Of a DNA stretch of 64,000 nucleotides, positions 17,767 to 25,749 are shown piece after piece (position 1 is the first letter of the stretch; every line of letters starts with the position of its first letter). This DNA comes from Dokdonella sp. (GTDB taxonomy: Bacteria > Pseudomonadota > Gammaproteobacteria > Xanthomonadales > Rhodanobacteraceae). A program made the translations under genes and the position numbers. The notes beneath the pieces are model-generated. The model was given only the letters and a program-made list of their open reading frames with translations. It made no database searches and had not been told where the DNA came from. The stretch covers positions 310,001 to 374,000 of the forward strand of contig NZ_JAHCAS010000002.1 of NCBI RefSeq assembly GCF_019634775.1. The letters run 5' to 3'.

Positions 17767-18064
17767 GCGGGCTCCGGCGGGCGTCTGCCCATTCAGGTTG
17801 TGAGGATGCGCCCCATTCGGCGACTTCGGTCGGCCGTTTGTGGTAATAATCGCGAGTCGGTCCGCACCGATGTGCGCTGCCGACCTCCGGACGATCATCC
17901 ATGGACACTCGCGGGCGCGTTCCCTTTCATCGGAAGCGTGCGCTGACTTGCAGGTTGCGCCGGATGGTTTCAGGGGAAACTCTCGCGCCATGCCGGCGGA
18001 GTGCCGGTCGCATATCGGGGTAAGTGCGTTGTCGTACGAAGTGGTTTCGGCTGTGCGGGCCCGG

Positions 18065-19936
18065 ATGGCGATCGGGCGCCTGCTTATTCTTCTGTGCCTT
18101 TCCTGCGTCGCCGGGATGGCGATCGCTCTCGATTTCACGCCGCACGGTACCCAGCCGGGCCTGCTGTGGGGGCTGGAGGAGCCGGAAGGCTGTTCATCCT
18201 GCCATCGCGGTTTCAGCGGCACCCGGCCGTCGTTCATGCCGCAGAACACCTGGGGTGGCTCGATGATGGCAAATGCCGCGCGCGACCCTTTGTTCTGGGC
18301 TGCGCTCGATGTCGCCAACAAGGACTTCCCCGGCGCCGGCGATTTCTGCCTGCGTTGTCATACGCCGCCGGGCTGGCTCGGCGGTCGCGTGGTCAAGGCC
18401 ATCGGCGGCGGCAACAATGGCCCGACGGGTGCCATGGGCTGCAAGCTCGGCGGTGACTATGATGACTTCGACTTCAAGGGCAACGACTTCGCCGGCATCA
18501 CCTGCCATTTCTGCCATCGCATGATGCCGACCGGCCCGGCCGGCGAGCCCGGCATGATCGGCAACGCGAACATCTGGATCGACAACACGACCGAATGCTT
18601 CACCCCGGACGGCTCGAGCTACGGCGGCCCTTGCCGGTATGGCCCCTACACCTACAGCGACGGCTTCCTGACCCCGCCGCATGGTTGGGTCCAGTCGAGC
18701 TACCACACGAAGTCGGCGCTGTGCGGGACCTGCCATGACGTCACCTCGCCGGATACCGACAAGGGCCCGCTCAAGACCCTCGTGCTCGAAGGTGGCGTGG
18801 CGACCACGCGGCCGTTCCCGATCGAGCGTACCTATTCGGAATGGACACGCAGCCTGTTCGCCGACCTGATCTTCCGTGACGGCCTGGGCGAGGGTGCGTC
18901 CGGCACACCGGCGCTGGCACGCGAGCAGCACTGCCAGGACTGCCACATGCGCAGTTCCGAGGATCCGACGGCGCTGGCCTGCAACCAGAATCCGCCCGGT
19001 TCACGCACGGGCAACCTGCCGATGCACGAGTTCGTCGGCGCCAACGCCTGGATTCCCGAGATCCTCAAGAACGAATACGGTGGTTCGGGAGGTCTGGATC
19101 GCGAAGCCGATTTTGACCGCACGATTGCCGCGGCAAAGGCCATGCTCACCTCGGCGGCCCAGGTCGAGACGACGATCACCGCTTACACCGCGCCGACCGT
19201 GTCGACGGCCGGCTCGATCAGCGTGCGGGTCAAGGTGACCAACCTCGGTGGACACAAGCTGCCGACCGGATACGGCGAAGGCCGGCGCATGTGGCTGAAT
19301 GTGAAGGCGGTCAGCGCAACGGACACCGTGCTCGCCGAGAGCGCGGCCTGGGACGCCACGACCGGGGTGCTGACCGAGGATGCGCAGGCCAAGGTCTACG
19401 AAGTCCTGCAGGGCATCTGGACGCCAGGTTCGCCGGGCGAGTGCGTGGTCGAGGTCGGCGGCAAGAAGAAGTTCCACTTCGTGCTGAACAACTGCGTGCG
19501 CAAGGACAACCGCATCCCGCCGCTCGGCTTCCGCCCGAAGACGGCAAGTGACCCGAATGGCGACGAAGTGCGCCCGGTCGCCTATGCCTATCCGGAGACA
19601 TCCCCAGGCTCGGGCGTGCTGGTCAACTACGACGTCACCGATTACACCTTCCCGCTGCCGGCTGGCGCGGCCCGCCCGATCCGCGTCGATGCGCGCCTGC
19701 AGTTCCAGACCGCGAGCAAGGAATACATCGAGTTCCTGCGTGACCAAGCCATCACCGCGCCGGTGATCCCGGCCGAGAACACCATGTGTGCGGGCGAACC
19801 GAATCGTCCGTTCGATGTCGGCCCGCAGTCGCTCTCGCGCGGGGAATACATGTACGAACTCTGGTCGAACCCGGCCTACGGCAAGTCGCCACCGGAGACG
19901 GCCGGCAATCCATCCAGCGTGACGACGGCGAATTGA
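18065..19936 (+). CDS. Secreted five-heme c-type cytochrome
   Basis: A 623-residue exported protein. The start at 18065 gives signal peptide MAIGRLLILLCLSCVAGMAI; a longer frame back to 17840 lacks signal character in its extra part. Five CxxCH heme sites are visible: CSSCH 43-47, CLRCH 95-99, CHFCH 147-151, CGTCH 220-224 and CQDCH 290-294. The C-terminal half (from about 370) has no heme site and looks like beta-sandwich domains, with NLGGHKLPTGYGEGRRMWL. It should sit in the periplasm or at the outer membrane and move electrons. It heads a compact operon; the next ATG is only 7 bases away. The specific partner is unknown. Confidence 0.85.
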   Translation: MAIGRLLILLCLSCVAGMAIALDFTPHGTQPGLLWGLEEPEGCSSCHRGFSGTRPSFMPQNTWGGSMMANAARDPLFWAALDVANKDFPGAGDFCLRCHTPPGWLGGRVVKAIGGGNNGPTGAMGCKLGGDYDDFDFKGNDFAGITCHFCHRMMPTGPAGEPGMIGNANIWIDNTTECFTPDGSSYGGPCRYGPYTYSDGFLTPPHGWVQSSYHTKSALCGTCHDVTSPDTDKGPLKTLVLEGGVATTRPFPIERTYSEWTRSLFADLIFRDGLGEGASGTPALAREQHCQDCHMRSSEDPTALACNQNPPGSRTGNLPMHEFVGANAWIPEILKNEYGGSGGLDREADFDRTIAAAKAMLTSAAQVETTITAYTAPTVSTAGSISVRVKVTNLGGHKLPTGYGEGRRMWLNVKAVSATDTVLAESAAWDATTGVLTEDAQAKVYEVLQGIWTPGSPGECVVEVGGKKKFHFVLNNCVRKDNRIPPLGFRPKTASDPNGDEVRPVAYAYPETSPGSGVLVNYDVTDYTFPLPAGAARPIRVDARLQFQTASKEYIEFLRDQAITAPVIPAENTMCAGEPNRPFDVGPQSLSRGEYMYELWSNPAYGKSPPETAGNPSSVTTAN

Positions 19937-19943
19937 GGTGACC

Positions 19944-20582
19944 ATGGCAATGCGTGCGCGCGGGGACATCGACTCGTTTCCATGGGTGGGCACGCGCGTC
20001 GGCGTCGCGATGCTCGCCATGCTCGGCGCAGCGCTCATCACCGGCTGCACGCATGCACCATTGCAGGTGTCCGCAAAGCCGCATTCGCTCGATCCCGAGG
20101 GGCGCATGCGCGGCTATGTCGAATCGGCCCGCACCTCCGATTTCTGTCCTGACCAGGCGAGCCGACCCGAGACCGACCGCTGCATGGTCACACGCGGCTT
20201 CGACTACGCGAGCGGCACCACCGTCGTGCGCATGTACGACCCGAGCGGTGCCCTGATCCGTACCGACCATCCGCCCGGCGCAGACCTCAGCCTGACGCCG
20301 CCCGAACAGGGGCGCGTCGAGGCGCTGGTGCGCGCCGACCCGCGCACTGCGTCGATCGTCAATCGACCCGACGTGATGCTTTGGTCGGGTGGTTTCGTCA
20401 TGCGTGAGCCGGGTGATCGCTACTGCGACCGCGGCAGCCGCTGTATCCGAGTGATCGCCGCTACCGATGGTGGCAATGACGTGGTCCTGCACTCGGTGGT
20501 CGATTTGATGACGGACCGCGTCGTCTATCCGTCCTATGAGCCTTCCGGCAAGGAAACGGCCGGCCTTGCCGGGAAACCCTGA
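19944..20582 (+). CDS. Small lipoprotein resembling a copper amine oxidase N2/N3-type domain (copy 1)
   Basis: 212 residues. A GAGG ribosome site five bases upstream selects ATG 19944 over the GTG at 19938. The N-terminus has a helix ending in AALITGC, a lipobox, so the protein is probably lipid-anchored. The part after about residue 110 (LTPPEQGRVEALVRADPR, then SRCIRVIAATDGG, then HSVVDLMTDRVVYP) follows the layout of the small N-terminal domains of copper amine oxidases, in which E..A..L...DPR leads to a conserved VVDL...VV strand pair. This is inference from pattern. It is a paralogue of the gene at 21803 and stands 3 bases before a catalytic-domain-like protein. Confidence 0.6.
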   Translation: MAMRARGDIDSFPWVGTRVGVAMLAMLGAALITGCTHAPLQVSAKPHSLDPEGRMRGYVESARTSDFCPDQASRPETDRCMVTRGFDYASGTTVVRMYDPSGALIRTDHPPGADLSLTPPEQGRVEALVRADPRTASIVNRPDVMLWSGGFVMREPGDRYCDRGSRCIRVIAATDGGNDVVLHSVVDLMTDRVVYPSYEPSGKETAGLAGKP

Positions 20583-20585
20583 CCC

Positions 20586-21794
20586 ATGCGCAGTGTGTAC
20601 GCGTTCCTGTTGTTGATTCCTGTCCTCGTCGGGTTTCCGGTGCCGGTACTTGCCGCGTCGCCAACCTGCGTCGCGCCGGAAGTGAAACTCAGCTGGCCGG
20701 CAGTCGACCCGATCTGGGAAATGTGCTGGCTCGGGCCGAACCAGAGCGTCGGTCCGCGTGGCTCCGGCATGGAACTGCGCAACGTGCACTGGAATGGTCA
20801 GCTCGTCCTGCGCCGCGCGCATGCGCCGATGCTGTTTGCCGAGTACAAGGGCGGCGCAGGCGGCGACTGCTATCGTGACTGGAAGGACGCCCGCACACCG
20901 ATCCTTGCTGCAGCCGGCGTGCAGAACCAGCTCGGCGTGATTCCGCCGGGTGGAGAACCGGCCAAGACTTCATGTGACCGGTCGCTGGATGCGACCGCAT
21001 CGTACGGCGTGTGCCCGTATGCCCTGCCGACACCGCCCGGCTACAGTTGCGCGAATGGTGTGATGATCGAGGACATGGGTAGCCATGTCCTGCTGACGAC
21101 CCAGTACATCGCCGACTGGTACATGTACAGCTCGCGCATCGAGTTCCATGCCGACGGCCGCATCGCGCCGACCTTCGGCTTCGGCAATCGCAACGGCACG
21201 TTCAACCACGTCACCCACTGGCACCACAACTACTGGCGCTTCGAGTTCGACATCGATGGCCTCGGCGACAACGTGGTCAGCACGAACGGTGTCGACCAGG
21301 CCACCGAGTTCAGCGACGTGCGCGATGCCAGTGGCGGACCCGGCGGCGGCCCGAAGACCTGGGAAGTGCGCAATGCCACCAGCGGCAATGGTTTCCGCCT
21401 GATCCCCGGCACCAACGACTACCTCGTGCCGGCGAACCAGTCGGGTCGCGGCTTCCACATGACCGACTTCATGGCCACCCGTGCCAACGCCGGTGAGTAT
21501 GGCGACACGCCGGATTACAACCTGTTCGATTGTTCGATGCATGCGGGCAACCTCGTTAACGGCCAAAGCATCGCAAACACGAATCCGGCCTTGTACTACC
21601 GCGTGGCCGTGCGCGACACGACCGCCAACGACTGGCCGCCCGGCTGCAGCGGTGCCGGCTGCCAGGCGCAGGATTCGATGGTGTGCAAGAGCGCCGGGCC
21701 GGTATGGGTGCCGTTCGGCCCATGGGTGGACCTGATCTTCGCCAACGGCTTCGACGCGCTCGTGCCGGGTGCGCGACCACACCTTTTCCGCTGA
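20586..21794 (+). CDS. Secreted copper-amine-oxidase-like catalytic domain protein (copy 1)
   Basis: 402 residues with signal peptide MRSVYAFLLLIPVLVGFPVP. GMELRNVHWNGQLVLRRAHA then MLFAEY matches the start of the copper amine oxidase catalytic domain (GL.L..V.Y.G.PVLYR.S..EM.VPY). GVMIEDMG corresponds to the ICIHEED.G segment, DWYMYSSRIEFHADGRI to the cofactor strand (Tyr179 at the TPQ position, but with Trp instead of Asn before it), and HWHHNYWRFEFDIDG to the HxH copper site (His211, His213). ANDWPP matches the EDWP motif, yet the third copper His is replaced (Arg343). Length is far below the 600-700 of true enzymes. The tail has LIFANGFD. Activity is doubtful; family assignment is reasonable. 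Confidence 0.65.
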   Translation: MRSVYAFLLLIPVLVGFPVPVLAASPTCVAPEVKLSWPAVDPIWEMCWLGPNQSVGPRGSGMELRNVHWNGQLVLRRAHAPMLFAEYKGGAGGDCYRDWKDARTPILAAAGVQNQLGVIPPGGEPAKTSCDRSLDATASYGVCPYALPTPPGYSCANGVMIEDMGSHVLLTTQYIADWYMYSSRIEFHADGRIAPTFGFGNRNGTFNHVTHWHHNYWRFEFDIDGLGDNVVSTNGVDQATEFSDVRDASGGPGGGPKTWEVRNATSGNGFRLIPGTNDYLVPANQSGRGFHMTDFMATRANAGEYGDTPDYNLFDCSMHAGNLVNGQSIANTNPALYYRVAVRDTTANDWPPGCSGAGCQAQDSMVCKSAGPVWVPFGPWVDLIFANGFDALVPGARPHLFR

Positions 21795-21802
21795 GTCGAC
21801 CG

Positions 21803-22492
21803 ATGACTGCATTTCGACACCAGCGTGGTGCCGCATTGGCCTTGCGGACGGGCGTGCTGGCGCTGATGGCGTTCGGCGTGATCCTGTCCGCCGGTTGCCG
21901 CCAGGCTGTCGTGCGCGACGACAGCGGCGCAGGCCCGGCAGCCGTCGATCTCGGCCCGCTCTCCGCCTCGGCCGGCGTTGGTGGCGGCGCCGTCAACGTC
22001 GACCTCGCCGCATCGAGCATCGTTCTGCCGGAGTACGTCGCGGTGCGTCGCTACCAGGACGTGTTCACCATCGATGGCAACAACCGCCGCGTGTTCGTCG
22101 AGTATGGCTGGGACTATCGTCGCGGCATCGTCGTCGAAACCGTCTATGAGACCGACGGTACGGTGTCCTCACGCACCGACATGCCGGCCCATACGCTCAA
22201 CTTCACCGACCGCGAACTCGAGTTGGCGATCGCCCTGGCCCGCGAGGATGAGCGGCTGCGTGACGTACTCGCCGAGCCGGGTCTGCACTACTACGCCGGT
22301 TTCCCGTATCGCCAGGTCGAGCAGCCAATGTGCGCGGCGCATTCGCGCTGCGTGCATGTGATCGTGTCCGCCGACGACGGCCAGCGCCACGTCGCACATG
22401 CGATCGTCGACCTGATGACGCGCAAGGTCGTGCTGCCGAAGCTCGATGAATGGCGCAATCCCGATCCTGTTTCGAATGAAAAGAACTCCTGA
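21803..22492 (+). CDS. Small lipoprotein resembling a copper amine oxidase N2/N3-type domain (copy 2)
   Basis: 229 residues from ATG 21803, eight bases after the preceding stop. A membrane segment ends in VILSAGC, a lipobox. The mature part carries LNFTDRELELAIALAREDER, a CAAHSRCVHVIVSADDG segment and HAIVDLMTRKVVLP, aligning with the first lipoprotein (RCIRVIAATDGG ... HSVVDLMTDRVVYP). The pair of Cys residues before the VIV strand is shared. A longer in-frame extension to 21683 runs inside the previous gene and is rejected. Role inferred only: the missing N-terminal domain of the amine-oxidase-like protein encoded next. Confidence 0.6.
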   Translation: MTAFRHQRGAALALRTGVLALMAFGVILSAGCRQAVVRDDSGAGPAAVDLGPLSASAGVGGGAVNVDLAASSIVLPEYVAVRRYQDVFTIDGNNRRVFVEYGWDYRRGIVVETVYETDGTVSSRTDMPAHTLNFTDRELELAIALAREDERLRDVLAEPGLHYYAGFPYRQVEQPMCAAHSRCVHVIVSADDGQRHVAHAIVDLMTRKVVLPKLDEWRNPDPVSNEKNS

Positions 22493-22503
22493 GGAGTGGC
22501 GTG

Positions 22504-23673
22504 ATGAAGTGTCTGATTCTGCGCGTGCTGGCTGTGCTGATCGCGGCTTCGGCGGGGCAGGCCATCGCAGCCGGCGCCGACTGTGCCACCTGGGGTGGGA
22601 CCCTGCTGAAATGGCCGGCCGCGGCGCCGGTGTGGGAGATGTGCTGGGTGCGCCCGAGCCAGAGCGTGGCCAGCGACGGCTCCGGACTCGAGCTGCGTGA
22701 CGTCCACTACAAGGGCATCCTCGTCGCCAAGCGTCTGCATGCGCCGATCCTGTTCGCCGAGTACCGTGGAAGCTCGACCTGCTATCGCGACTGGAAGGAT
22801 GCCAACGCGAACTTCGCGGCCACGCCGCCGGTGCGCAACCAACTCGGCGTGCCGGGCACCTTCATCGCCACCACCACCTGCGACGTGTCGAACGCGGCAA
22901 CGGCTTCGTACCAGAACTGCCCGTGGAACACGCTGCCGGGCTCCACCTTCACCAGCGCCGACTGCATCGGTGGCGCCGGCGGCGTGGCGATCGAGGACAT
23001 GGGGGACCATGTCGTCCTGACCACGCAGTATTCGGCATCGTGGTACCAGTACACGAGCCGTTACGCATTCTGGGAGAACGGAGACATCCAGCCAGAATTC
23101 GGTTTCGGCAACTCGAACGGCACGAACAACAATCTGACTCATTGGCACCACAACTACTGGCGTTTCGACTTCGACATCGATGGTTCGGACAACAACGAGA
23201 TCCGCGCCAACGGTGTGCCGCAGTCGACCGAATTCACGGGTCTGCGCAGTCTGACCGGTGGGCCGGGCGGGGGGGTGACCTATTGGGATGTCGTCACCAC
23301 GAAAGGTGGATTCGGCTACCGCATCGTGTCCGGCAACGGCGATTACACGCCGGCCAACGAGTCAGGGCGCAATTTTCACACCGTCGACGTGATCGGCAGC
23401 CGCTTCATCAACAACGAGTATGCGGACCGCGCCAACAACAATCTCGGCGATTGCGAGATGCAGGCCGGAAACATCGCCAATGGCCAGAGCATCGCCGATA
23501 CCGACGTGGTGTTCTGGTACCGCACGAGCGTGCGCGACGCCAATGGCAACAACTGGCCGCCGAACTGCTCCGGCGCAAGCTGCGAACCGCAGAATTCGAT
23601 GGTCTGCAAGTCCGGTGGGCCGACCATGACGCGCATCGGTGACTGGCCGATCTATCGCAACGGTTTTGAATGA
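22504..23673 (+). CDS. Secreted copper-amine-oxidase-like catalytic domain protein (copy 2)
   Basis: 389 residues; ribosome site GAGGAG seven bases before ATG 22504 favours it over GTG 22501. The signal peptide is MKCLILRVLAVLIAASAGQA. It is clearly paralogous to the 20586 product: GLELRDVHYKGILVAKRLHA, VAIEDMG, SWYQYTSRYAFWENGDI (Tyr181 at the cofactor position, again preceded by Trp), THWHHNYWRFDFDIDG (His213, His215), and NNWPP preceded by VRD, so the third copper His is again absent. Several Cys residues suggest disulfides and an extracytoplasmic place. The protein ends exactly in IYRNGFE. Confidence 0.65.
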   Translation: MKCLILRVLAVLIAASAGQAIAAGADCATWGGTLLKWPAAAPVWEMCWVRPSQSVASDGSGLELRDVHYKGILVAKRLHAPILFAEYRGSSTCYRDWKDANANFAATPPVRNQLGVPGTFIATTTCDVSNAATASYQNCPWNTLPGSTFTSADCIGGAGGVAIEDMGDHVVLTTQYSASWYQYTSRYAFWENGDIQPEFGFGNSNGTNNNLTHWHHNYWRFDFDIDGSDNNEIRANGVPQSTEFTGLRSLTGGPGGGVTYWDVVTTKGGFGYRIVSGNGDYTPANESGRNFHTVDVIGSRFINNEYADRANNNLGDCEMQAGNIANGQSIADTDVVFWYRTSVRDANGNNWPPNCSGASCEPQNSMVCKSGGPTMTRIGDWPIYRNGFE

Positions 23674-23730: not shown

Positions 23731-25749
23731 ATGCGTGCTTCGAACAGATTCCTTGCCTTCACAATCCTGGCCACAGCGATCTCGCTGGCGCTGCCCGTGG
23801 CGGTTTGCGCTGAAGAGGGTGAAGGCCCCGCGGCGAGCAGCGAGCAGTTGTGGGCGGCCTGGGGCGGCACCGTCGGCGTGCGCTGGAACCGCGAGCTTGC
23901 TGCCGATCTCGGCCTGCGTTTCGAGACGCCGACATCGCTGCTCGAGGGTCTGAGCTGGATGGGGCACGAACGTTTTGCGTTGCGCAACAGCGGCAGCCTC
24001 GAATTCCATGTGGCCAACGGCAACCTGCGCGCCTTCGCCGGCGGTTCCGTGCAGGCGCGCGGCGGCTACGTCCTGGTGATCGGCGAGGATCGCATCGACC
24101 TGACCGATTTCCGCCTGCGGCCGCGCGCAGACGACCCGCTGATCCTTGATCTCGTCGGTGCCGACGGCAAGGCCTGGTTCTACATCGATCGCCTGATGTA
24201 CGAACTGGTCGACGACAACAAGGTGCTCGCCGTGCGCACCATGGATCTGCGCATCAGCACGGCCCTCGCGCAGCGCCTTGGCCATGCCGAGGCGGCAAAC
24301 TGGGCGATCGCCGACATGGAGATGACCACCGAGGTGCAGCGCCAAGGTCCGGGCATCGAGCCGTTTGGCGCCAGCTATCGATGGCATGGCACCAGCGCTC
24401 CTGGCGGCAACATCTACCAGGCCGACCTGTTCATGCAGACCTTCAACGCCCAGTACTCCCGTTGCAGCGGCTGCACGGGCACGTCCTCGTCGAGCCAGGT
24501 CGTCTTCACGCCGTCGTCGACGCTGCGCAACAACGTCAACAACGGAACGATTTCGGCTACCGTGCCGGGCGATCCGCTCGGTACCAGCACCGCGCTCTAC
24601 GCCGCCGATATTCCGTGGTGGCAGAAGTTCTCGGGCAACCACGAACCTTACGGCAACGACCAGCATCCCTACCTGATCTGGAATCTGTACCGCATCAATG
24701 CCAATGGCTCGATCGACCAGATCGGCCGCTCGGGCGTGAAGCACGCCTTCCTGACCACGAATACGGGCTGCATCGAGAATCCCAACAACGGCCACGTCCT
24801 CGGCCTTGGCTGCATCGACACCTACAGCACCGGCAACAACGACAGCAACAACGCGCTTGGTCCGCGCTCGGAAATCATTCCGGCGACGAACGAATGGGGT
24901 CGTTGCGGCTCGATCTACGACATCGACTGCAACGGTGTCGCCAACAGCTCGGGCAACACCAACTATTCGCAGCGCCTCATCGTCGCCGAGTCGCAGATCG
25001 CCCCCGGCCTCAACCCCGGTGCGACCTTCCTGTTCGAGTCGTGGTACCTGGCACGAGAGGACATCAATATCTACAACTCGATGGCAAGCAAGTCGTTCAC
25101 CGCGACCTGGACGGGCAGCACCTGGGCGGTCGGCGGCAATGCCAACTACCGCCTCGGTCCGGCCATCGACCGCTGGGTCGACCCGGCGATTCCGACGGCC
25201 AATGCGCAGTCGATCGAATTCGCCTCGGTCGAGGGCCATGTGAAGGTAGCGGTCAAGGCGACCGACCTCGGCGGCGGCAACTGGCGCTACGACTATGCGG
25301 TGATGAACCTCGACTTCGCGCGTGGCGTGACCGAAGGCGCGTCGCCGAACCTGCGCGTCGTGCACAACTACGGCTTCGACCGCTTCAGTGTCACCGCGCC
25401 TGGCGTGGCGATCTCGGACATCGTGTTCAGCGATGGCGACCTCGACGCGGCGAACGACTGGGCCGGCACGGCTACCGCCAGCGGCATCGAGTGGAGCGCA
25501 CCGGTCAACCCGGCGCCTCCGGCGAACACGCCGGCGGTGCTCAATCCGCTGAACTGGGGCACGCTGTATCGCTTCTCGTTCACGGCGAACTCGGCACCGA
25601 CGGCGGCCGCGATCGACTTGCACATCGCCCAGGCCGGCATGCCGGCATCGTTGACCAACACCATCCTCGGCCCGACACCGATGCTTGCCGACCTCATCTT
25701 CCGGGATGGTTTCGAGCAGGATGATTCCGAGCAGGCCGGATCCGAGTAA
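23731..25749 (+). CDS. Large secreted protein of unknown function with IFRDGFE tail
   Basis: 672 residues after an AGGAG ribosome site. The signal peptide is MRASNRFLAFTILATAISLA. The rest is rich in Asn, Ser, Thr and Gly with beta character and no catalytic motif I recognise. A CSGCTG pair near residue 245 and further Cys residues suggest disulfides. The C-terminal ~150 residues (WRYDYAVMNLDFARG to LYRFSFTAN) look like one compact beta domain, followed by ADLIFRDGFE and a short acidic tail. It is the last gene of the cytochrome/amine-oxidase-like operon (57-base gap) and is followed by a strong hairpin. Function unknown. Confidence 0.8.
   Translation: MRASNRFLAFTILATAISLALPVAVCAEEGEGPAASSEQLWAAWGGTVGVRWNRELAADLGLRFETPTSLLEGLSWMGHERFALRNSGSLEFHVANGNLRAFAGGSVQARGGYVLVIGEDRIDLTDFRLRPRADDPLILDLVGADGKAWFYIDRLMYELVDDNKVLAVRTMDLRISTALAQRLGHAEAANWAIADMEMTTEVQRQGPGIEPFGASYRWHGTSAPGGNIYQADLFMQTFNAQYSRCSGCTGTSSSSQVVFTPSSTLRNNVNNGTISATVPGDPLGTSTALYAADIPWWQKFSGNHEPYGNDQHPYLIWNLYRINANGSIDQIGRSGVKHAFLTTNTGCIENPNNGHVLGLGCIDTYSTGNNDSNNALGPRSEIIPATNEWGRCGSIYDIDCNGVANSSGNTNYSQRLIVAESQIAPGLNPGATFLFESWYLAREDINIYNSMASKSFTATWTGSTWAVGGNANYRLGPAIDRWVDPAIPTANAQSIEFASVEGHVKVAVKATDLGGGNWRYDYAVMNLDFARGVTEGASPNLRVVHNYGFDRFSVTAPGVAISDIVFSDGDLDAANDWAGTATASGIEWSAPVNPAPPANTPAVLNPLNWGTLYRFSFTANSAPTAAAIDLHIAQAGMPASLTNTILGPTPMLADLIFRDGFEQDDSEQAGSE

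Follow-up and report, generated by a model that had tools for sequence, protein, structure and literature searches.

How can a copper amine oxidase (CAO) be parcelled out over separate polypeptides, and where would such an enzyme send the electrons of its substrate? The question is raised by four consecutive genes of Dokdonella sp. (Gammaproteobacteria, Xanthomonadales, Rhodanobacteraceae), which lie on the forward strand of a 64,000-nucleotide stretch of contig NZ_JAHCAS010000002.1 (assembly GCF_019634775.1, positions 310,001 to 374,000), hereafter called the window and counted from its first letter. They encode a lipoprotein with an N2/N3-like CAO domain (LpA, 19944..20582, 212 residues), a secreted homologue of the CAO catalytic domain (SecA, 20586..21794, 402 residues), a paralogue of LpA with the same kind of domain (LpB, 21803..22492, 229 residues) and a second secreted homologue (SecB, 22504..23673, 389 residues). 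We hold with modest confidence that the Lp and Sec proteins together form a diverged CAO made of two polypeptides, which oxidises a substrate and delivers the electrons to a pentaheme cytochrome.

A first-pass annotation had described four reading frames in the order Lp, Sec, Lp, Sec with gaps of 3-11 bases, and this is borne out by the window's open reading frames, which are 3, 8 and 11 bases apart. Its coordinates were right for these genes and too narrow for the module as a whole, since a cytochrome gene lies upstream and a gene for a 672-residue protein downstream. Both lipoproteins have a lipobox as judged from their sequence (LITG before the lipid Cys35 of LpA, at 20046-20048; LSAG before Cys32 of LpB, at 21896-21898), the lipid cysteine is kept in the complete members of the family, and SecA and SecB each begin with a signal peptide. 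The genes are real, because homologues stand in the same order in 28 other loci and a crude ratio of nonsynonymous to synonymous substitution (dN/dS) against three relatives is 0.08-0.41, well below 1. SecA and SecB are 55% identical; beyond these two, neither another Sec copy nor an ordinary CAO was found in the Dokdonella genome.

Our results support the view that the Sec proteins are remote relatives of the CAO catalytic domain. Since single-sequence searches with the window proteins gave sub-threshold matches only, families were built. SecB matches a 555-residue protein of lineage G174 at 9.8e-28, and this protein (L045:986-2653, reverse strand, no obvious signal peptide), probably a fusion of an N-domain with a CAO catalytic domain, passes the cut-off of Pfam Cu_amine_oxid (9.9e-12, 44.9 bits). 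A Sec profile including five distant relatives matched only CAOs in the PDB, with a best value of 3.2e-15 whose strength came partly from these bridging relatives, as a control profile of 35 close homologues showed. Over 279 columns, that restricted profile is itself colinear with a set of nine CAOs (1.9e-6). Finally, the AlphaFold model of SecB (predicted local distance difference test, pLDDT, 88; predicted template modelling score, pTM, 0.88) has the supersandwich catalytic fold, its 50 best Foldseek matches in the PDB being all CAOs (5e-13). The catalytic-like domain of the first-pass annotation is thus recovered along three routes: the bridge from SecB to the G174 protein, the restricted profile and the SecB model. 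The motifs that it had quoted are present, and invariant or nearly so over the 35 homologues, with the exception of WPP, which is missing from several. Profile alignment confirms that they run in the same order as in CAOs, with one correction: VxIEDMG belongs to the strand that immediately precedes the one bearing topaquinone (TPQ) and does not correspond to HEED.G.

The lipoproteins are in turn predicted to have the fold of CAO N2/N3 domains, a conclusion supported by a structural model and by profile comparison. The LpA model (pLDDT 82.7), for which no sequences but Lp relatives were used, found CAOs in all of its 50 best PDB matches, at best with E 3.1e-5 and probability 1.00 over about 165 aligned columns. 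The Lp family profile lands on N2/N3 at 3e-4 by itself and at 1.4e-6 when joined with an N-domain family from a second gammaproteobacterial order, which matches Lp at 3.6e-7. No significant match was obtained with the Pfam-A library on 36 Lp members. Modelled each alone, SecB and LpA therefore resemble CAOs and not some unrelated fold, and the resemblance of the lipoproteins to N2/N3, first noticed by eye, is upheld. So is the proposed split of the enzyme into an anchored N-domain and a free catalytic-like domain, with N2/N3 residing in a separate lipoprotein.

The two halves also travel together. A genome scan yielded 28 loci besides the window, the named members belonging to Dokdonella, Tahibacter and Pseudofulvimonas and the rest being mostly Lysobacterales metagenome bins; a Sec homologue occurs in 42 of 399 sampled genomes of the window's order. 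When the neighbourhoods of this first set were surveyed by tblastn, Lp was found directly before every Sec, on the same strand, in all 29 loci (window included), and the cytochrome gene stood before the first Lp in 26 of the 27 loci with room for an upstream gene, the exception being L028. Fifteen loci fetched later all have the order cytochrome, Lp, Sec. The survey of homologues that the first-pass annotation had suggested thus extended its pairing to every locus and defined a core module of pentaheme cytochrome c, Lp and Sec, whose order is kept in 41 of 42 testable loci. Besides, the tree of Lp matches that of Sec (r 0.82, against 0.26 for the best of 2000 permutations); this correlation is partly due to shared genome ancestry, whereas the agreement within A and B is specific to the pairs, LpA following SecA and LpB following SecB. 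The pair duplication claimed at the outset is real in the window, with the qualification that it is old and confined to some genera. Indeed, tandem double pairs are found in the window, in L007-L011 and, separately, in L022, and SecA and SecB fall into different clades that also hold single-copy genomes, which argues for an old duplication.

What the Sec active site may still do can be judged from an alignment of 35 Sec proteins with nine CAOs, to which 14 Sec proteins fetched later (38-66% identical to those of the window) were added, for a total of 49. The precursor Tyr of TPQ, the partner Tyr that bonds to TPQ, the base Asp and both His of the HxH pair are kept in 35/35 and then in 14/14 proteins. 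By alignment, the catalytic base corresponds to Asp96 of SecB (22789..22791), the Asn-Tyr(TPQ) position to Trp178-Tyr179 of SecA (21117..21122) and Trp180-Tyr181 of SecB (23041..23046), and the first two copper ligands to His211-x-His213 of SecA (21216..21224) and His213-x-His215 of SecB (23140..23148). Two replacements are equally constant: the third copper His is an Asp (Asp344 of SecA, 21615..21617; Asp345 of SecB, 23536..23538) and the Asn preceding the precursor Tyr is a Trp, both in 35/35 and 14/14. At the gap near the third His, hhalign and MAFFT differ by one column; read without a gap from the conserved D-V-V onwards, the sequence puts Asp345 on that His, a placement supported by the G174 protein and by canonical copies. 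In the later set Asp345 stays constant while its neighbour varies (VRD, VND, VMD, VWD, VKD). Since two residues that define CAOs are replaced in every member, Sec proteins are not canonical members by the CAO definition, and catalytic-like was the right word for them. From its residues, the site is strongly constrained yet non-canonical.

For the CAOs that have been studied, strict conservation of the three copper His is described, and the Asn is important for forming TPQ: the HPAO variant N404A forms 5-10% TPQ (PMC3382800). The consensus T-x-x-N-Y-D/E of the cofactor (PMC3382800) reads W-Y-x in 35/35 Sec. A split CAO could still be an ordinary oxygen-reducing TPQ amine oxidase, with the cytochrome serving some separate purpose or a protective one. 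The invariance of the precursor Tyr, base Asp, partner Tyr and HxH pair would fit such an enzyme, and AGAO N381A still makes TPQ, if 180 times more slowly (PMC9491219). However, with the third His changed to Asp and the Asn to Trp in all 49 Sec, and with a cytochrome next door almost universally, we consider this account unlikely. Another explanation turns the same replacements into the core of a changed chemistry, with a mononuclear His2-Asp site that possibly does not hold copper, an unmodified or radical Tyr, a non-amine substrate and electrons passed to the cytochrome. Asp345 and Trp180, invariant amid varying residues, speak for it, as does the pentaheme partner. Yet the G174 protein combines Trp before the Tyr with all three copper His, so that Trp alone is no sign of copper loss, and Asp, here read from sequence alone, could still ligate copper; such a far-reaching change seems improbable to us.

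Relatives from the second order widen this picture. They occur in 27 of 63 genomes, typically at a locus where a free N-domain is accompanied by two catalytic copies, one degenerate and one intact, together with a YtkA-like protein and a CCP_MauG diheme protein (L047, L091-L094, L096, L097, L099 and L105-L107, in which the YtkA-like protein is a lipoprotein). Neither the base Asp nor HxH is found in any of the 16 degenerate copies; all 23 intact ones retain the Tyr, the Asp and the three His, and their Tyr is preceded by Ala, Ser or Glu. The operon therefore looks like a natural pairing of an active with an inactive CAO. One genome of this order, G074, encodes a conventional full-length CAO (L102:7627-9714) alongside its split operons. 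In the tree, Sec groups with the G174 protein, and CAOs and the second order each form a group of their own; the separation of the CAO halves possibly had one origin or several. The N-domain of the G174 protein was assigned by a by-eye alignment and by its position before the catalytic domain, and that part gives no significant match with the Lp profile alone. The degenerate copies, which keep the fold without catalysis, lend some credit to the notion that the window's proteins employ the CAO fold for something other than catalysis, such as binding to surfaces or giving the cytochrome a structural scaffold. This has little probability in our estimation, the active-site residues of the window's family being among its most conserved parts.

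How would a two-polypeptide CAO work? Lp would anchor the complex to the membrane through its lipid and present its N2/N3-type domain, on which the secreted catalytic domain would be seated as the two domains are within one CAO chain. This arrangement is suggested by the folds, the strict gene pairing, the agreement of the trees and one probable natural fusion. Judging by its conserved residues, Sec most likely acts on an amine or a comparable reduced compound, oxidising it with a mononuclear metal and a tyrosine-derived or tyrosyl centre; the electrons would then pass to the cytochrome of the upstream gene, and not to oxygen alone. Being old paralogues, the two pairs may combine into a mixed dimer or have a substrate each.

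Several observations weigh against this two-polypeptide CAO. Compared directly with Pfam Cu_amine_oxid (PF01179), SecB reaches E 0.0028 at the HxH strand (17.1 bits, for a cut-off of 27) and SecA gives no hit, so that the window proteins stay below the cut-off that the fused G174 relative passes. Without bridging relatives, the Sec profile reaches the CAOs of the PDB weakly (E 0.33, again at the HxH strand). Because that control weakened the PDB search, we base homology on the G174 bridge, the models and the restricted profile comparison. The Foldseek TM-scores are moderate, about 0.5, despite strong E-values. A TPQ enzyme is not assured either, the replacements of His by Asp and Asn by Trp hitting residues needed for normal TPQ formation (PMC3382800, PMC9491219), and electron transfer to the cytochrome is deduced from gene neighbourhood only. 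A more specific proposal is put forward as tentative: the module may represent a distinct class of redox enzyme with the CAO fold, a two-chain membrane-anchored dehydrogenase whose His2-Asp site for the metal and Trp-Tyr centre feed the pentaheme cytochrome, with a sister system in another order that pairs an inactive with an active subunit and that a MauG-like diheme protein may mature or serve.

The cytochrome gene (17840..19936, forward strand, likely start ATG 18065) ends 7 bases upstream of LpA and encodes a c-type protein with a signal peptide and five CXXCH motifs. It shows a weak Cytochrome_C7 match, and a profile search found no relative among solved structures. The same genome encodes one more pentaheme cytochrome from this family, 37% identical (L111:7985-10048), which stands without Lp or Sec and ends in a hydrophobic stretch plus arginines. 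On the other side, 57 bases downstream of SecB, starts the gene of the secreted 672-residue accessory protein (23731..25749, forward strand), which about two thirds of the loci in the first set encode and which sometimes occurs at module loci in several copies with extra cytochromes. It is rich in Cys and Trp and has the strongly conserved motifs DQHPxLxWN and KHA; no relative was found in Pfam, in the PDB or in the plasmid collection. A C-terminal tail of the type [IL]F-x-(N/D)-G-F-[ED] is common to SecA (21720-21794), SecB (23640-23673) and the 672-residue protein (25690-25749), and is also carried by an unrelated protein whose gene lies at another place in the genome (L111:2882-4222). It is perhaps a sorting or secretion signature.

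CAOs are described as single chains that form homodimers, make their own quinone with the help of three His and copper, and pass electrons to oxygen. With the enzyme domain PF01179 of AGAO or ECAO TynA, Sec shares the fold, the motif order, the Tyr at the TPQ position, the base Asp, the partner Tyr and the HxH pair. It differs in having its N-domain on a separate chain, Asp for the third copper His, Trp for the Asn, a score below the Pfam cut-off and a pentaheme cytochrome as neighbour. Lp likewise resembles the N2/N3 domains of chains such as AGAO (1ui8) in structure matches and profile alignment, except that it is free-standing and that the helix opening N2, present in the second-order N-domain, appears to be missing. 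The second-order operon (G074, G608-G669) is similar in its separate N-domain beside catalytic domains in tandem copies, and different in that one copy is degenerate and the other intact with three His, and in that a YtkA-like and a CCP_MauG protein take the place of the pentaheme cytochrome.

Methylamine dehydrogenase and quinohemoprotein amine dehydrogenase are also periplasmic enzymes with a protein-derived quinone, from which electrons flow to c-type haem or another carrier. Their folds and cofactor residues are unrelated to those of Sec, and the likeness would be functional only. The methanethiol oxidase MtoX, with SCO1 and MauG as neighbours (PMC5739008), recalls the second order in combining a periplasmic copper enzyme with a MauG-like candidate for maturation, but belongs to another enzyme family. 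The active/inactive pairs of the second order would be the natural counterpart of the engineered AGAO heterodimer of wild-type and Y382F subunits (PMC4497604). A description of a split bacterial CAO was not found in the openly accessible literature, subscription journals being mostly outside this search. The parts are of known kinds, while the novelty lies, as far as the open literature shows, in how they are arranged and in the fixed residue changes. A split form with a fixed His-to-Asp replacement and a multiheme cytochrome partner would reveal which parts of the CAO design are dispensable, and the module may turn out to connect a quinone or tyrosyl enzyme with respiration instead of peroxide production.

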